In this document: one piece after another, positions 1 through 60,203 of the stretch | Layout of the letters: each line of letters opens with the position of its first letter | Position numbering within the stretch: position 1 is the first letter of the stretch | From: Methanosarcinaceae archaeon | GTDB lineage: Archaea; Halobacteriota; Methanosarcinia; Methanosarcinales; Methanosarcinaceae | Direction of reading: 5' to 3' | Assembly: GCA_030611265.1 (NCBI GenBank) | Contig: JAUWQD010000008.1 | Coordinates: 1-64,000, forward strand | Length of the DNA stretch: 64,000 bases | Program-made: the position numbers and the translations under genes | The notes under the pieces: model-generated | Told to the model about the DNA's origin: nothing | Database searches by the model: none | The model's input: the letters and a program-made list of their open reading frames with translations, nothing else

Positions 1-32
1 GCACTATATGTTTATAAAACATATACTACGAG
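1..32 (+). repeat. Partial copy of the 63-bp two-hairpin element (second hairpin)
   Basis: The window opens inside a copy of the interspersed element found whole at 26801, 40644, 46575 and 49975. Only the second hairpin is visible: TATATGTTT, a 3-nt loop, then AAACATATA, followed by the same CTACGAGAAA tail as the copy at 46575. The stem differs from other copies (AATT/AATT there, GTTT/AAAC here), yet both arms changed together. The first hairpin would lie left of the window. Confidence 0.7.
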
Positions 33-26800: not shown

Positions 26801-26863
26801 CGAGAAAATTCTCCCTTCGGTCGAATTAACTCGAACTATATAATTCTATAAATTATATACTAT
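26801..26863 (+). repeat. 63-bp two-hairpin element, copy A
   Basis: Hairpin 1: CGAG-aa-AATTC, 11-nt loop, GAATT-aa-CTCG. Hairpin 2: TATATAATT, short loop, AATTATATA. It lies between ribH and the aspartate aminotransferase gene. Nearly identical to copy B at 40644; copies C (46575) and D (49975, inverted) have different but still complementary stem bases. Its second hairpin is AT-rich enough to act as a TATA source for the gene at 26888. Confidence 0.85.
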
Positions 26864-39423: not shown

Positions 39424-40686
39424 ATGTTGATTACCAAGGATTTTCTCACAATTGATGATTTTGACATAGGTGATGCGACAATTCTTGTTCGTGTTGATTT
39501 GAATTCTCCTATGGACCCTGATGGCAATATTCTTGATGATATGAGGATAAGAAGTCATCTGGTCACATTAAAGGATCTTGAAAATGCGAAAGTTGTCTTG
39601 CTCGCTCACCAGAGCAGACCCGGAAAAAACGATTTCACTACTATGAGGGCACATGCTTTGCGCATGTCAGCTTATCTTGGACGTGAAGTCAGGTATGTTG
39701 ATGATATTTTTGGATCGCATGCAAGGTCAAGCATATCGTCGATGAAGAAAGGGGATGTCATCCTTCTTGAAAATGTGAGGTTCTATTCAGAAGAGATGCT
39801 GAAAAGAACAGCATCAGAACACGCTGAGACTCATATGGTTAAACAGCTTTCGCCACTTTTTGACATATTTTTAAATGATGCATTTGCAGTGTCACACAGG
39901 GCACAGTTGTCGATACTTGGCTTTACCGAAACTCTTCCAAGCGGTGCGGGAAGGGTTATGGAAAAAGAGATCATCTCACTTGACAGGGGTGTTAAAGAAG
40001 GTGGAAGCCCGTGTATTTTTGTACTTGGTGGAGCTAAGGTGGATGATTCACTCAAGGTCGCTGAAAATGTGTTGTCAAATAGCAATGCGGATAGAGTGCT
40101 GCTGACAGGTATTGTTGGTAATGTGATGCTTGCGGCATCGGATGTGGATATTGGTAAAATTAATATGGATTTTATTGAATCGCAAGGTTACCTTGATCTG
40201 ATCGAGCAAGGAAAAGGTCTTATTGAGAAGTATGATGGGAAGATCGGGTTGCCGGTTGATGTCGCATTGAATGATAACGGCACACGAATTGAAGTACCTG
40301 TAAATGAACTTTCGAAGAATGATCTTCCTGTTAATGACATTGGACTCGAGACCATTGTTGCATTCACGAAAGAGATCGAAAATGCAAAAACGGTTGTTTT
40401 GAACGGCCCTGCAGGCGTTTCCGAGATAGATGAATTTGCACTTGGTACACATGAGATCATCAGATCTGCAGCAAAGTCTGAGTTTTCCATTATTGGAGGT
40501 GGGCACATATCCGCAGAGGTCATTAATATGGGACTTGAGAACCAATTTTCTCATTTGAGTACTGGCGGTGGAGCGTGTATTGATTATCTTGCAGGGGAAA
40601 AACTTCCCGGCATTGAAGCATTGAAGTATGTTGCAGCACGACACGAGAAAATTCTCCCTTCGGTCGAATTAACTCGCACTATATAA
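39424..40686 (+). CDS. pgk: Phosphoglycerate kinase, C-terminus encoded by a repeat
   Basis: 420 residues. ILVRVDLNSPMD at the N-terminus, LLAHQSRPG, DVILLENVRFYSEEM, FVLGGAKVDDSLKV, VVLNGPAGVSEIDEF and SIIGGGHISAEVI are the substrate- and nucleotide-binding motifs. It acts in gluconeogenesis and glycolysis between 3-phosphoglycerate and 1,3-bisphosphoglycerate. The last ~14 codons (HEKILPSVELTRTI) lie wholly inside copy B of the two-hairpin element at 40644, which also supplies the stop codon. The family's catalytic core is complete without them. Confidence 0.92.
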   Translation: MLITKDFLTIDDFDIGDATILVRVDLNSPMDPDGNILDDMRIRSHLVTLKDLENAKVVLLAHQSRPGKNDFTTMRAHALRMSAYLGREVRYVDDIFGSHARSSISSMKKGDVILLENVRFYSEEMLKRTASEHAETHMVKQLSPLFDIFLNDAFAVSHRAQLSILGFTETLPSGAGRVMEKEIISLDRGVKEGGSPCIFVLGGAKVDDSLKVAENVLSNSNADRVLLTGIVGNVMLAASDVDIGKINMDFIESQGYLDLIEQGKGLIEKYDGKIGLPVDVALNDNGTRIEVPVNELSKNDLPVNDIGLETIVAFTKEIENAKTVVLNGPAGVSEIDEFALGTHEIIRSAAKSEFSIIGGGHISAEVINMGLENQFSHLSTGGGACIDYLAGEKLPGIEALKYVAARHEKILPSVELTRTI

Positions 40687-40706
40687 TTCTATAAATTATA
40701 TACTAT
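40644..40706 (+). repeat. 63-bp two-hairpin element, copy B, inside the pgk 3' end
   Basis: Same sequence as copy A (26801) apart from one base. It provides the last codons and stop of phosphoglycerate kinase, so the insertion replaced the old end of the reading frame. It also puts a TATA-rich palindrome 70 bp upstream of the AMMECR1 gene. Confidence 0.85.
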
Positions 40707-41736: not shown

Positions 41737-41835
41737 AGAGAAAATGCTCGCTGACGCTCGCATTTACATGGAAACCCTGGACTCATGTCCAAGGAGTCCG
41801 ACAGAGTCGGACTGACATAAAGTTATACTTTATGT
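41737..41835. repeat. Hairpin cluster: hairpin 1 of the two-hairpin element followed by 7-3-7-type palindromes
   Basis: AATGC-loop-GCATT (41743-41764), with loop TCGCTGACGCTC, is hairpin 1 of the interspersed element with a fourth stem variant. After it come TGGAC/GTCCA (41778-41791), GTCCGAC-aga-GTCGGAC (41796-41812) and ACATAAAGT-tat-ACTTTATGT (41815-41835), the last ending ACGATAG. The 7-3-7 design matches the array at 35874. No gene in 41381-42044. Confidence 0.65.
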
Positions 41836-46228: not shown

Positions 46229-46270
46229 GATAACCCCACTCATATCCAACCCAATTCACATTTTATTAGA

Positions 46271-46386
46271 TATAGAGGCTGTCCAACAATCCAAAATCAC
46301 AGATAAAAGAAGGACAAATATGGCTTTAAATCAATAAATAAGGTTTTATTTTATCGTCCACAGCAATTATTAGACAGCCTCTATAG
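46271..46386. mobile_element. ~115-bp MITE-like element with GAGGCTGTC ends
   Basis: Left end TATAGAGGCTGTCCAACAAT and right end (reverse complement) TATAGAGGCTGTCTAATAAT match over 18 of 20 bases. The core terminal repeat starts GAGGCTGTC and is flanked on both sides by TATA, a likely 4-bp target duplication. The interior has no coding capacity. It looks like a deletion derivative of a DDE-type insertion sequence. Confidence 0.7.
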
Positions 46387-46574: not shown

Positions 46575-46641
46575 CGAGAAAATCTTCGCTGACGCTCAGA
46601 TTGACTCGCACTATATAATTCTATAAATTATATACTACGAG
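46575..46641 (+). repeat. 63-bp two-hairpin element, copy C, at the MFS pseudogene start
   Basis: Hairpin 1: CGAG-aa-AATCT, 12-nt loop, AGATT-ga-CTCG; hairpin 2 as in copy A. It is bounded by ACGAGAAA on both sides (46574 and 46637). Flanks match the intact MFS gene's upstream region at 57165-57270, where no element is present (AATAAAATGAAAAACAGCAG), so this is an insertion that removed the start codon. Confidence 0.85.
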
Positions 46642-47247
46642 AAACAGCAGCATAAACAGTGCAGTGAAACCGAATGTATCCGATGGTATCAGTAGGAAAC
46701 TGCATATTCTTTCACGGTCTCGTTTTTTTGAGATATGTGGACAGGGATGCTGGTCACCCTGACACACCTGTCCACTCCGGCTACAAGAGGCAAGGCTGTT
46801 GGCATATATTCTACAATTCGTGGATTGGGTTTGGTTCGGGTCCTGTTATTGGCGGTGCGGTTGCTACGTATTATAGTTTTAATACTGCCTTTTTACCTGT
46901 GCGCCGCATTTGGACTTATGAGTTTCATATTGGTCAATCTTCTTGTGAAAGAAACACACAGCACCTGTGTTGAGAAGGTTGTGGATGAGGACGTGAAAAA
47001 CGGCAAGGGGTCTATACTGGTTCTTTCAGGTGCTATGTTTATGATGATGGTCGGCATCATGATGATCGTTGCACTCCTGCCCGAATATGAGATTCGACTT
47101 GGAGCACCGGAATTTTCGTTGGGCGTAGCGTTATCTGCACATATGCTTACTCGTTTGATATTTCAAACGCCGATCGATGCATTGTCAGAGGATAGGCAGG
47201 AAAAAGTTGATCGTCGGAGGTCTGCTATTAAGCGCCCCTCTTCCGAT
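46642..47247 (+). pseudogene. Broken copy of the MFS transporter gene (source-like paralogue at 57250)
   Basis: The sequence aligns with 57253-58155 at high identity (for example CACCTGTCCACTCCGGCTAC and AGGCAAGGCTGTTGGCATAT are shared) but lacks about 300 bp near the N-terminus, has several frameshifts, and stops aligning after the SDKIGRKK-equivalent region. Its start codon has been displaced by the two-hairpin element. The last part runs in frame into argC, giving a misleading fused reading frame; argC has its own start at 47305. Confidence 0.88.
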
Positions 47248-47304
47248 CAAAACCGAACTCGACTAATAACAACTTTAATTAATATTGGAACTATACATTG
47301 TGGC

Positions 47305-48327
47305 ATGAGCGATATGATAAACGTAGGAATTATCGGCGGGTCTGGATACACAGGCGGGGAATTGATGCGCCTGTTACTGAGGCATCCATATGTTAACATC
47401 GAGGCAGCGACATCAAGGCGTCTGGCAGGTAAGGATGTGTGCGATACGCATACACACCTGCGCAGGTTTTTGGATATGCAATTCGAGGATTTGAGTCCTG
47501 ATGAGATAAAAAACCGCTGCGATGTTGTGTTCGTCGCTGTTCCGCACGGAACTTCGATGAATATTGTGCCGCAGTTACTTGATGGCAATACTAAGGTCAT
47601 TGACTTGAGCGCAGATTATCGCCTAAAGACCGATGTGTTCGAGAAGGTGTATGAGATCAAACACACAAACCCGATAGATGCAGTCTTTGGTCTTGTTGAA
47701 CTGCACCCCGATGTTGCGGATGAGATGTTCATCTCAAATCCGGGTTGCTACCCCACAGGGGCGATTCTCTCGGCAGCACCGCTTGTGGCTGCGGGTCTGG
47801 TCGATGCCGCAATATTTGATTCAAAGTCCGGCATTTCAGGTGCGGGCATCAACCCAAGCGTGACTTCGCACTATCCGAACATGGCTGAGAATATACAGCC
47901 TTACAAGTTAACAACACACCGCCACCGTGTCGAGATTTTCCAGGAACTTAACCACCTGGATAATTCACTTACGAACATCAGTTTCACACCCCATGTGATC
48001 CCATCGGTTCGTGGAATATTGACTACGGCGCACATTTTCACAAAATCCACCCTCTCGGCAGATGAGGTCAAGCGAATCTACACGGATTTCTACAAGGACA
48101 AGCCATTCATGCGCGTGATAGATGGAATCCCAACGCTGAGCGCGGTCAGGGGCTCGAACTTCTGTGACATCGGTTTCGAGGTTGACGAGCAGAACAACCG
48201 TGTTGTTGTTATCTCTGCAATCGACAATCTGGTGAAAGGCGCGTCCGGGCAGGCTATTCAGAACATGAATTTGATGTGTGGATTTGAGGAGGCAGAGGGG
48301 TTGTGGGTGGCTGGGGTTGCGCCTTGA
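47305..48327 (+). CDS. argC: N-acetyl-gamma-glutamyl-phosphate reductase
   Basis: 340 residues. INVGIIGGSGYTGGELMRLL is the NADP site, VFVAVPHGTSMNIVPQL and ISNPGCYPTGAILSAAPLV (catalytic Cys) the signature, and HRHRVEIFQEL and FTPHVIPSVRGILTTAH the C-terminal motifs. It makes N-acetylglutamate semialdehyde in arginine biosynthesis. The start is the ATG at 47305 (MSDMINVGII); upstream in-frame codons belong to the MFS pseudogene. Only 57 bp separate the pseudogene from the start, so the promoter may be inside former MFS DNA. Confidence 0.93.
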   Translation: MSDMINVGIIGGSGYTGGELMRLLLRHPYVNIEAATSRRLAGKDVCDTHTHLRRFLDMQFEDLSPDEIKNRCDVVFVAVPHGTSMNIVPQLLDGNTKVIDLSADYRLKTDVFEKVYEIKHTNPIDAVFGLVELHPDVADEMFISNPGCYPTGAILSAAPLVAAGLVDAAIFDSKSGISGAGINPSVTSHYPNMAENIQPYKLTTHRHRVEIFQELNHLDNSLTNISFTPHVIPSVRGILTTAHIFTKSTLSADEVKRIYTDFYKDKPFMRVIDGIPTLSAVRGSNFCDIGFEVDEQNNRVVVISAIDNLVKGASGQAIQNMNLMCGFEEAEGLWVAGVAP

Positions 48328-49974: not shown

Positions 49975-50037
49975 GCTGTATATAATTTATAGACTTATAT
50001 AGTTCAAGTTAATCCGAGCATAGCGAGGATTTTCTCG
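49975..50037 (-). repeat. 63-bp two-hairpin element, copy D (inverted)
   Basis: Read on the minus strand: CGAG-aa-AATCC, 11-nt loop (TCGCTATGCTC), GGATT-aa-CTTG, then TATATAAGT, a short loop and AATTATATA. The inner stem is the third variant with both arms changed; the outer stem keeps a G-T pair. Confidence 0.85.
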
Positions 50038-57249: not shown

Positions 57250-58503
57250 ATGAAAAACAGCAGCATTCACAGTACAATGAAACCACAAGTGCCTGATGGT
57301 ATTAGCAGGGAACTATACATATTATCATTATCGCGATTTTTTGAGGACATGGGAACCGGGATGCTGGTTACCCTTATTCCGCTGTACATTGTTAATCTGC
57401 ATACATCGATTTTGCCGGATATTCCGCTTATTCTAAAAGCCGGTATTGTGATGACAGTTTTTGGTCTGTTCAATGCAATCGCACAACCTGTCATGGGCAA
57501 GTTGTCAGATAGACTTGACCGGAGAAAGCCTTTCATCATCTTTGGATTGGTCGGCTACACTGTTCTTTCGCTTATGTACGCACACGTTACAAGTTATGAG
57601 CAGTTGCTTGTTCTTAGGGTCATGCAGGGAATAACGGTTGGCGCAACCATACCTGCAATAATTGCGATGGTGACGCACCTGTCCACTCCGGCTACAAGAG
57701 GCAAGGCTGTTGGCATATATTCTACAATTCGTGGATTGGGTTTTGGTCTGGGTCCGGTTCTTGGCGGTGCAGTTGCAACGTATTATAGCTTTAATACCGC
57801 TTTTTACCTGTGTGCCGCTTTTGGTCTTGTGAGTTTCATATTGGTCAATCTTCTTGTTAAAGAGACACACAGCACTTGTGTTGAGAAGGTTGTGGATGAA
57901 GATGTTAAGAGTGGTAAAGGGTCGATACTTGTCCTTGCAGGTGCTATGTTCATGATGATGGTCGGTATCATGATGATCGTTGCACTCCTGCCTGAATATG
58001 AAATTCGACTCGAGGCATCGGAATTTTCGTTGGGGGTAGCGTTATCTGCATATATGCTTGCTCGTTTGATATTTCAAACACCGATCGGTGCATTGTCAGA
58101 TAAGATAGGCAGGAAAAAGTTGATCGTCGGGGGCTTGATATTAAGCGCCCCTCTTGTGATTGGTACCGGTTATGTGACAAGTATCGAACAGTTGATACTG
58201 CTTCGTGCGTTGCAGGGATTCACGATCGCAGCCATCGACACTCCTGTAATTGCACTGGCGGGCGACTTGTCGGGTGGAGCGATGGTCGGCTCAAAATTGA
58301 GTATGATCACTACAGCCTATGCAGGCGGGATGGCAATAGGTCCTATATTTGGCGGACTGCTTGCAGGATATGTTACTTTTGAGACACCGTTCTATGTCTG
58401 TGCGGCTCTGATGGTGGTTGCTGCTGCAATTGTATGGAAGAAGGTGGATGAACCTGCACATCACAAGGATATTGCGGATTTTGAATGCGGTGAGATCGTT
58501 TGA
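57250..58503 (+). CDS. Major facilitator superfamily transporter (intact copy)
   Basis: 417 residues, 12 transmembrane helices. GKLSDRLDRRKPF (loop 2-3 motif A) and GALSDKIGRKKLIVGG (its repeat in the second half) mark an MFS exporter or permease. The substrate is unknown; multidrug-type exporters have similar motifs. The ATG at 57250 has no strong Shine-Dalgarno. A partial, broken copy is at 46642. Its stop abuts the convergent deoxyribosyltransferase stop with no spacer. Confidence 0.9.
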   Translation: MKNSSIHSTMKPQVPDGISRELYILSLSRFFEDMGTGMLVTLIPLYIVNLHTSILPDIPLILKAGIVMTVFGLFNAIAQPVMGKLSDRLDRRKPFIIFGLVGYTVLSLMYAHVTSYEQLLVLRVMQGITVGATIPAIIAMVTHLSTPATRGKAVGIYSTIRGLGFGLGPVLGGAVATYYSFNTAFYLCAAFGLVSFILVNLLVKETHSTCVEKVVDEDVKSGKGSILVLAGAMFMMMVGIMMIVALLPEYEIRLEASEFSLGVALSAYMLARLIFQTPIGALSDKIGRKKLIVGGLILSAPLVIGTGYVTSIEQLILLRALQGFTIAAIDTPVIALAGDLSGGAMVGSKLSMITTAYAGGMAIGPIFGGLLAGYVTFETPFYVCAALMVVAAAIVWKKVDEPAHHKDIADFECGEIV

Positions 58504-59192: not shown

Positions 59193-59431
59193 GACAAGAA
59201 GTTATATCACAAATTGCCTCACGGCTACCCCCTTCATTCGGGGTAATACTACTGTGGGATGCGTCAATGGTAACGTTGGGGTGTTAAGTTCACAGGATAA
59301 CGTGAAAAAACCCGAAAGTCCAATTCGGTTTAACTGCAAGGATAAGGAAACTATGAAGAGTGTAATGCGAACCATCGTAAGAATCGTGACTGCGAATAAG
59401 CGTAACTGGACTGCCACGCTTAAACCACTGT
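59193..59431 (+). mobile_element. Truncated 5' copy of a group II intron, with its 5' exon
   Basis: A 27-bp exon-like segment (59193-59219, starts GACAAGAAGTTATATCAC) is followed by about 210 bp that match the first part of the intact-looking copy at 59461: CTACCCCCTTCATTCGGGGT, GTCAATGGTAACGTTGGGGT, TCACAGGATAACGTG, GCGAATAAGCG. It ends at 59431 where the exon-like segment begins again. Its first bases are decayed (CGGCTAC for GTGCTAC). Confidence 0.7.
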
Positions 59432-59460
59432 GACAAGAAGTTACATCATAAATTGCCTTT

Positions 59461-60148
59461 GTGCTACTCCATCTATTTGGGGTAATCCTACTATGATATG
59501 CGTTGGTGGTAACGCCAAGGTGTAGAGCTCATAGGACAATATGGAAATGTTGGAAGTCTGATCCATCCAATCTGTTAGGATAAGAATACCATGAAGAAAC
59601 ACATGTTGAATCACCGTAAGAGTCGTTAGCGTGAATAAGCGAAATGAGACTGATACGCTTAACCAAAAGGCACAAAATCGGGTTATAATGGCTTGGTTAA
59701 CATTATAATAAATGGACAAATGGTTTTTGGCTTATAGGTGGCTTCTAAAGTATTCAAGATTATTTATGATGTAGAACTTAGTAAGCCCTATGCATTCCCT
59801 CAAGGTAGGAATCTAGCAATAGACAACAATGATGCAGAGGGAAAAGCAAAGGTCAATTTGTAATGAATTGAATCGAAGTTCAAAATTTGCCTTAGTCTGA
59901 AAGGATGCTAACTTACTCTACGGTGTTCTATTGTATGAACGGAGGTATGACCTATGAATGTAAGAAAGTCAACATATCTTCAAACAAAGCGACGATTGCA
60001 TAAAATATTGTAGTTGAAAAAAAAACTAATGCCACTGAATTAATAAACTGCTGCCCGAAAGGGTTATGAAAGGCTTGAGCCGTATGCGGTGAAAGTTGCA
60101 TGTACGGTTCTTAGAAGAGGGAGAGCGAGTAATCGCTCTTCTTTATTC
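59461..60148 (+). mobile_element. Group II intron without intact reverse transcriptase
   Basis: The 5' end GTGCTACTCCATC follows a copy of the 27-bp exon segment (59432-59458). Domain I signatures run to about 59660. Domain V is complete and exact in length at 60077-60110 (GAGCCGTATGCGG tgaa ... TACGGTTC, 34 nt), followed by a domain VI stem (GAGAGCGA gtaa TCGCTCTTC) ending near 60148. A reverse transcriptase start survives at 59954 (GGAGGTATGACCT ATG; MNVRKSTYLQTKRRLHKIL, stop at 60013). The rest of that gene is deleted, so the element cannot move by itself. Confidence 0.82.
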
Positions 60149-60203
60149 TGCGGGAATGGTGATTAAGATAAAATGAGAAAGAAATTGTGCAATAAACACA
60201 ATC

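Follow-up and report, generated by a model that had tools for sequence, protein, structure and literature searches.

Introduction

Transposable elements of the IS605 type have a published signature: they lack terminal inverted repeats, carry subterminal hairpins, insert without duplication and keep a T-rich target on one side (PMC3119063, PMC5934647). The closest described systems to the element reported here are the IS605-type PATEs of Haloquadratum walsbyi, archaeal elements of non-coding length that have near-terminal palindromes and no terminal inverted repeats, and that occur as strain-specific, precise insertions without target duplication; versions consisting of the termini only are as short as 52 bp (PMC3119063). 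The SMRs of Haloquadratum (80-110 bp) also insert without duplication and have no known mobiliser (PMC3119063). In IS608 and ISDra2, members of the IS200/IS605 family with Y1 HUH enzymes, subterminal hairpins are combined with insertion 3' of a one-flank T-rich target without duplication, and in IS608 the foot of the hairpin holds a few bases complementary to the cleavage site (PMC5934647). REP and REPIN sequences, associated with TnpA-REP (RAYT), are short palindromes that occur in large numbers between genes, are tagged at the foot of the hairpin and are thought to be moved in trans by a Y1 enzyme (PMC8266576, PMC3733652).

Here we describe an interspersed element of 60-62 bp (individual copies 55-65 nt) from the genomes of ANME archaea. 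These archaea consume sea-floor methane and cannot be grown in pure culture, and to our knowledge little is known about the agents that reshape their genomes. The element constitutes a new and real family of miniature mobile element, of a kind that is already known. As in PATEs, there are no terminal inverted repeats, the palindromes lie close to the termini, no duplication is made, the target lies on one flank and the unit is too short to encode a transposase; it differs from them in packing two non-identical hairpins into about 60 bp, in having an end that copies the target motif, and in its direct arrays, covarying stems and ANME hosts. The terminal inverted repeats that SMRs possess (PMC3119063) are missing, as is the combination of inverted repeats and target duplication that defines classical MITEs. 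A previous sequence-only reading of the locus had noted that no named family is known to have this design. No Rfam covariance model matches the element and literature searches found no description of it, so the absence of a name stands, but the design itself is not unprecedented, since it resembles that of the published PATEs.

Results

Copies in the window and their effect on genes

The window, the whole stretch of 64,000 nucleotides analysed here, is contig C42 of a 2.86-Mb genome (G000) of the ANME-3 genus. On the forward strand the unit reads A-CGAGAA-AATTC-TC-CC-loop-GG-TC-GAATT-AA-CTCG-nnn-TATATAATT-CTATA-AATTATATA-CT. The forward copies placed by the sequence-only reading at 26801, 40644 and 46575, and an inverted one, were all found as described, and the analysis bore out both a partial copy with an AATGC/GCATT stem and, in a copy cut by the contig start, a hairpin 2 of the GTTT/AAAC type. 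The features are the following.

46575..46636, + strand: full copy, subtype AATCT/AGATT, covariance model score 84.3 bits; the counterparts in G001 and at the 57250 paralogue are empty
46574: A common to the 46575 copy and its target, directly 5' of the copy
46575..46608, + strand: hairpin 1 of the 46575 copy, CGAG / AA / AATCT / TC / GC-loop-GC / TC / AGATT / GA / CTCG
46612..46634, + strand: hairpin 2 of the 46575 copy, TATATAATT-CTATA-AATTATATA
46637..46645, + strand: target-side right flank of the 46575 copy, ACGAGAAAC, against ATGAAAAAC in empty sites
57250..57258, + strand: empty paralogous target ATGAAAAAC, which is the start of an intact MFS gene
40644..40704, + strand: full copy, AATTC/GAATT, within the 3' end of the phosphoglycerate kinase gene; target ATGAAAAAT from 40705
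26801..26861, + strand: full copy, AATTC/GAATT, with the lumazine synthase gene on one side and an aminotransferase gene on the other; target ATAAAAAAC from 26862
49977..50037, - strand: full copy, AATCC/GGATT, more decayed than the other three full copies
41738..41771, + strand: partial copy, hairpin 1 only (AATGC/GCATT)
2..27, + strand: hairpin 2 of the GTTT/AAAC type, from the copy cut by the contig start, followed by target-like ACGAGAAA
4061..4100, + strand: decayed partial copy (hairpin 1), weak and of low confidence (E = 1.5e-5 in a search of the loci examined)

The copy in the phosphoglycerate kinase gene is present also in G005 and missing from G001 and G002. The corresponding open reading frame (39424-40686) terminates within the element (40644-40686), so that its last residues are element-derived, while in G001 and G002 it ends uninterrupted. 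The element is polymorphic between closely related ANME-3 genomes and alters gene ends, in this gene and in that of an MFS transporter.

The 46575 copy, put forward as the example by the sequence-only reading, is present but slightly atypical, because it is followed on the right by ACGAGAAAC, in place of the ATGAAAAAC seen at every empty site. Both of the differences match the element's own left end, and the change also destroys the MFS start codon; this flank may perhaps be the scar of a lost array unit. Downstream, the window holds a decayed MFS gene (46640-48327) with a lost start codon and an internal deletion, the frame of which continues into an argC-like semialdehyde dehydrogenase domain to form a fused open reading frame of 530 codons; its intact paralogue lies at 57250-58503.

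Two hairpins maintained by compensatory change

The ends of the element (ACGAG... and ...TATACT) are not inverted repeats of each other, and a hairpin lies near each terminus. Among 41 distinct ANME-3 copies, standard pairs occupy 97.4% of cells, compared with 88.1% after shuffling, and two-sided changes are seen at 10 of the 20 pairs. The covariation score amounts to 0.262; shuffled alignments give 0.094 (none of 500 attains the observed score), and controls in which the structure was slid along do not exceed 0.038. The covariation of stems that had been noticed in the few copies of the window extends genome-wide, far beyond shuffles, and it recurs in 56 more divergent copies, in which hairpin 1 shows 95.8% pairing with two-sided changes at 7 of 11 pairs; the second pair is GC in 24 and AU in 22 of these copies, and the inner stem has CG in 23, GC in 18 and AU in 8.

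The 11-12 nt loop originally assigned to hairpin 1 is not unstructured, as it contains a further 2-bp stem that itself covaries (CC/GG, GC/GC, AC/GT). Between the stems of hairpin 1, over 90% of copies retain an internal loop of TC opposite TC (GA opposite GA in the complementary strand). Hairpin 2 varies by swaps of the whole stem (TATATAATT, TATATATTT, TATATGTTT, TACATAAAG and TACATGAT). Folded as single-stranded DNA, both strands of two intact copies gave z scores between -4.1 and -4.9. Both hairpins are maintained through compensatory change. Since the copies covary as RNA does, they will mislead searches for non-coding RNA; they will also break assemblies.

Precise insertion without target-site duplication

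Comparison of flanks across 1.82 Mb of the element's own genome and approximately 1 Mb of relatives yielded 81 matches between sites, of which about 30 are both distinct and clean. The clean pairs mostly reveal exact insertion: no target-site duplication is seen, and no more than one A is shared. In one pair (junctions marked by a caret), the filled site L119:3796 reads GGATAATTACA-element-ATGAAAAAGG and the empty site C51:63200 in G000 reads GGGTAATTAC^ATGAAAAAGG, with flanks 97% and 95% identical over 400 bp on each side. Likewise, CCTGCTA-element-ATTAAAAATTAG at L160:6469 corresponds to CCTGCT^ATTAAAAATTAG at C27:8154, and a dimer in L206 to an empty site at window position 60165.

The unfilled paralogous site that the sequence-only reading had pointed to at 57250 does exist, and a better one, an orthologue, was identified in G001 (L245:3091; flank identity 93% and 86%), where the 46575 locus is empty and reads AATAAA^ATGAAAAACAG. 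This rules out mere drift between paralogues as the source of the difference between 46575 and 57250. In G002, a copy at the 46575-type locus stands immediately before the same ATGAAAAAC. Between G005 and G000 (mean flank identity 93%), seven sites are filled in both and seven in G005 only. Polymorphism of filled and empty sites, set beforehand as one of two tests of the proposal (the other being paired substitutions beyond chance), is frequent among relatives. Insertion is exact, makes no target-site duplication and places the element directly 5' of an A-rich target that lies on one side only.

A one-flank target that the element itself carries

Alignment of 202 array-terminal copies gives the right-flank consensus A-Y-R-A-R-A-A-A-A, with conservation ending sharply past position 9, whereas nothing is conserved on the left flank of these copies except an A at position -1 (69%). 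The motif A[CT][AG]A[AG]AAA occurs exactly at 107 of the 202 right flanks and with at most one mismatch at 148, whereas among left flanks 6 of 202 match, and at shifted positions the rate is 1.0%. The target is therefore AYRARAAAA on the strand that has hairpin 1 first, or TTTTYTYRT on the opposite strand, and because the motif is already found in many empty sites, it is a target and not a tail.

The element's own left end (ACGAGAAA; ACGAGAAAA) has the same motif as the target. Existing copies are consequently targets themselves, which accounts for head-to-tail arrays of mixed subtypes. In the part of its own genome examined, 121 arrays comprise 93 single copies, 27 doubles and one quadruple, and 27 of 28 arrays are oriented head-to-tail. 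Neighbours within arrays are mostly of different subtypes, so arrays grow by insertion, and local tandem duplication is rejected as their origin. A right flank of AC[GA]AGAAA with no recognisable element behind it was found in 49 of 300 copies; the copy at 46575 has a flank of this kind.

Only 6 of 109 arrays lie inside open reading frames of at least 100 codons, although such frames make up 81% of the sequence examined; such an intergenic distribution is typical of mobile repeats on which purifying selection acts. Gene context (co-directional, divergent or convergent) is as predicted by intergenic length. In the G000 arrays, copies between co-directional genes run 35 along the genes to 12 against them; the target motif is itself biased only slightly in the direction of genes (54%), which explains this orientation bias only in part (p = 0.005); the remainder counts against the mode of movement proposed below.

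Copy number and distribution

A single-copy query gave 51 matches. With a covariance model built from 41 copies, at least 150 were scored in the element's own genome, which is a floor because scoring extended to 150 candidates. Of 151 profile matches, 129 are full-length, with no pattern of 5' truncation. All seven genomes of the ANME-3 genus carry the element, with 29-152 copies among the matches listed per genome, a number capped near 150, and most of the ANME-3 genomes examined have well over 100.

Within the class, 34 of 238 genomes carry the element, and they fall into 10 of 39 genera. Besides the ANME-3 genus and two of its sister genera, carriers are found in family f3 (three genera, up to 90 copies), in f2 and f5 with few copies, and in one genus of another order. 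Named carriers include 'ANME-2 cluster archaeon', and none of the plain methanogen relatives listed by name has a copy. Many of the copy-free relatives of other genera in the search tables are nearly complete genomes. This patchy presence across several families and one further order suggests exchange between them. A virus collection, searched with the exact hairpin-1 pattern, gave no match, nor did phage and plasmid collections. The archaeal element also occurs on a contig assigned to 'Candidatus Desulfaltia' (L112; JAUSPN010000095.1). That contig was probably mis-binned; its metagenome of origin (E21) also yielded an ANME-3 bin.

Proposed mode of movement

The subterminal hairpins, the T-rich target on one flank, the lack of duplication and a tetranucleotide at the hairpin foot that is complementary to the cleavage site lead us to propose that the element moves as single-stranded DNA, with an HUH enzyme acting in trans. 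The element is thus probably a very short non-autonomous ANME transposable element, 60-62 bp long, mobilised as single-stranded DNA by an IS200/IS605-like transposase. The observed precision of insertion, target, polarity and structure would accord with a transposing strand of the form 5'-TTTTYTYRT^AGTA-hairpin 2-GTG-CGAG-TT-hairpin 1 core-TT-CTCGT^-3' (carets marking putative cleavage), in which hairpin 2 would be the left-end hairpin and the inner part of hairpin 1 the right-end hairpin, with CTCGT as the right cleavage site and CGAG at the hairpin foot as a guide-like sequence. An HUH tyrosine transposase of the IS200/IS605 type, supplied in trans, would act on single-stranded DNA and cut the TTTTCTCGT strand, at the 3' end, through a covalent tyrosine link; the excised element would form a circle and enter its new site 3' of TTTTYTYRT.

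The sequence CGAGTTAA, located between the two hairpins, can pair with the right end of the element and, if G-T pairs are allowed, with the target TTTTYTYRT. If it served as a guide, the guide variants CGAG and CAAG should each shift the target base that faces them, and copies with a CAAG guide should avoid G at target position 3. Among G plus A at this position, G makes up 24% in such copies versus 43%, with p between 0.035 and 0.19 depending on filtering; since this amounts to no more than a weak trend in the predicted direction, we make no claim of guiding by base pairing. The predicted left cleavage site lies 2-3 nt from the left hairpin, and in IS608 this spacing is far longer. The element departs from IS608 and ISDra2 in a left hairpin that would abut the cleavage site and in having no internal transposase gene, and it offers a single candidate guide between the hairpins, in contrast to IS608, in which each end has its own guide.

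The palindromes of PATEs occur also in haloarchaeal IS605-type transposons (PMC3119063), but a search of 30 genomes for Y1_Tnp found no autonomous parent with the ends of our element. The intact Y1 transposases read in ANME-3 and f3 genomes belong to ordinary IS200-like elements, with left ends ACTTTCAC... and right ends resembling ...GGGGTATAGTGACT, and those resident elements whose ends are readable differ from our element and were rejected as the parent. No Y1 match was found in G006 (83% complete, about 150 copies) or in G030, which has many copies, and only Y1 fragments in G123 (99% complete, 90 copies). Y2_Tnp (IS91-type) was discarded as a mobiliser, being patchy and missing from several element-rich genomes. 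Isolated half-copies did not reveal a transposase gene bounded by hairpin 2 and hairpin 1, and a larger parent suggested by isolated left ends joined to GAGTTCGTATATACTCC was rejected, because GAGTTCGTATATACTCC belongs to a different dispersed repeat. The mobiliser that is missing here should be a concrete entity that can be found, and the element's shortness, covarying stems, exact junctions and self-targeting make it a natural data set on how single-strand transposons choose their targets. A bolder version, in which CGAGTTAA would be one shared guide for left end, right end and target, every copy would be a target, and an enzyme unlike recognisable IS200 transposases, shared among seep archaea, would mobilise the element in trans, we regard as doubtful.

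Alternative explanations

Rather than a PATE-like IS605 derivative, the element could be an analogue of REP or REPIN sequences spread by a domesticated TnpA-REP (RAYT), with an (R)TAG tag at the foot of hairpin 2 comparable to the GTAG of REPs. On the reverse strand RTAG does precede hairpin 2, as GTAG in arrays and as ATAG or GTAG at single sites; REP transposases use their tag as a cleavage guide, and high copy number, palindromes and intergenic placement suit a REP-like system. REPs, however, are single, GTAG-tagged palindromes of 20-40 nt, usually in inverted pairs (BIME/REPIN) beside a RAYT gene, whereas the element has two different hairpins in fixed order, a strong insertion target and arrays that are direct in 27 of 28 cases, and the R of its tag is part of the target or of the neighbouring copy. 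Among the Y1 loci examined, neither a Y1 gene flanked by copies nor a RAYT gene flanked by repeats was found; full copies near a Y1 match were seen only at L034, where they stand to one side of a Y1 remnant at a distance of about 1 kb and do not flank an intact gene. We consider such an origin unlikely.

Movement by a tyrosine recombinase acting on a folded strand, in the manner of integron cassettes, would have circles inserted at AYRARAAA and give ordered arrays without duplication. Direct arrays, precise junctions, structured DNA and an element end that shares the target motif are all consistent with it, but reading of the copies revealed no attC-type core boxes (RYYYAAC/GTTRRRY), and no cassette open reading frame or integron platform was seen by eye in the stretches read, which makes this mechanism distinctly unlikely.

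Covarying stems and an orientation that follows gene direction would also be expected if the element were a functional RNA or regulatory element (a terminator, processing site or small RNA), its stems kept for RNA function and its mobility secondary. The stems would be equally required by a single-strand transposon, gene context follows intergenic length and Rfam offers no match. Positions, moreover, turn over between species even with flanks that are 93% identical (seven filled against seven empty), and an RNA gene or terminator is rejected on this ground; the broader functional-RNA reading is quite improbable. It is highly improbable that a small structured RNA was retrotransposed into T-rich sites with the aid of a group II intron reverse transcriptase. 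The element's 3' end is indeed followed by an A-run, and the window has a group II intron at 59.2-60.2 kb, but the A-run is present beforehand at empty sites, and so is target and not poly-A tail (for which reason the poly-A version is rejected), there are no target duplications, and most matches are full-length without 5' truncation.

Association with other repeats

The group II intron region of the window (59226-60151) consists of two D1-D4 regions (59226-59386 and 59465-59614) followed by a single domain match (60075-60151). In G005, an element dimer is inserted 14 bp beyond this intron region, and window position 60165 is its empty counterpart.

A second dispersed repeat lies at 46270-46386 of the window. 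It is about 116 bp long, has terminal inverted repeats of the GAGGCTGTCC...GGACAGCCTC type and is present in many copies in the genus. In relatives it is often inserted within hairpin 2 of the element (L163, L135, L214, L154, L190 and L107), so that one MITE uses the other as its target. In G000 (C76:9953, C95:54467 and C99:9376) and at L194:4275 and L184:90, the element's left end, consisting of hairpin 2 and GTGCGAGTT, is fused at one and the same position to CGTATATACTCCTTTTTTGCAAGAGC..., which represents a third family of dispersed repeats; the fusion may be a composite element or a preferred junction.
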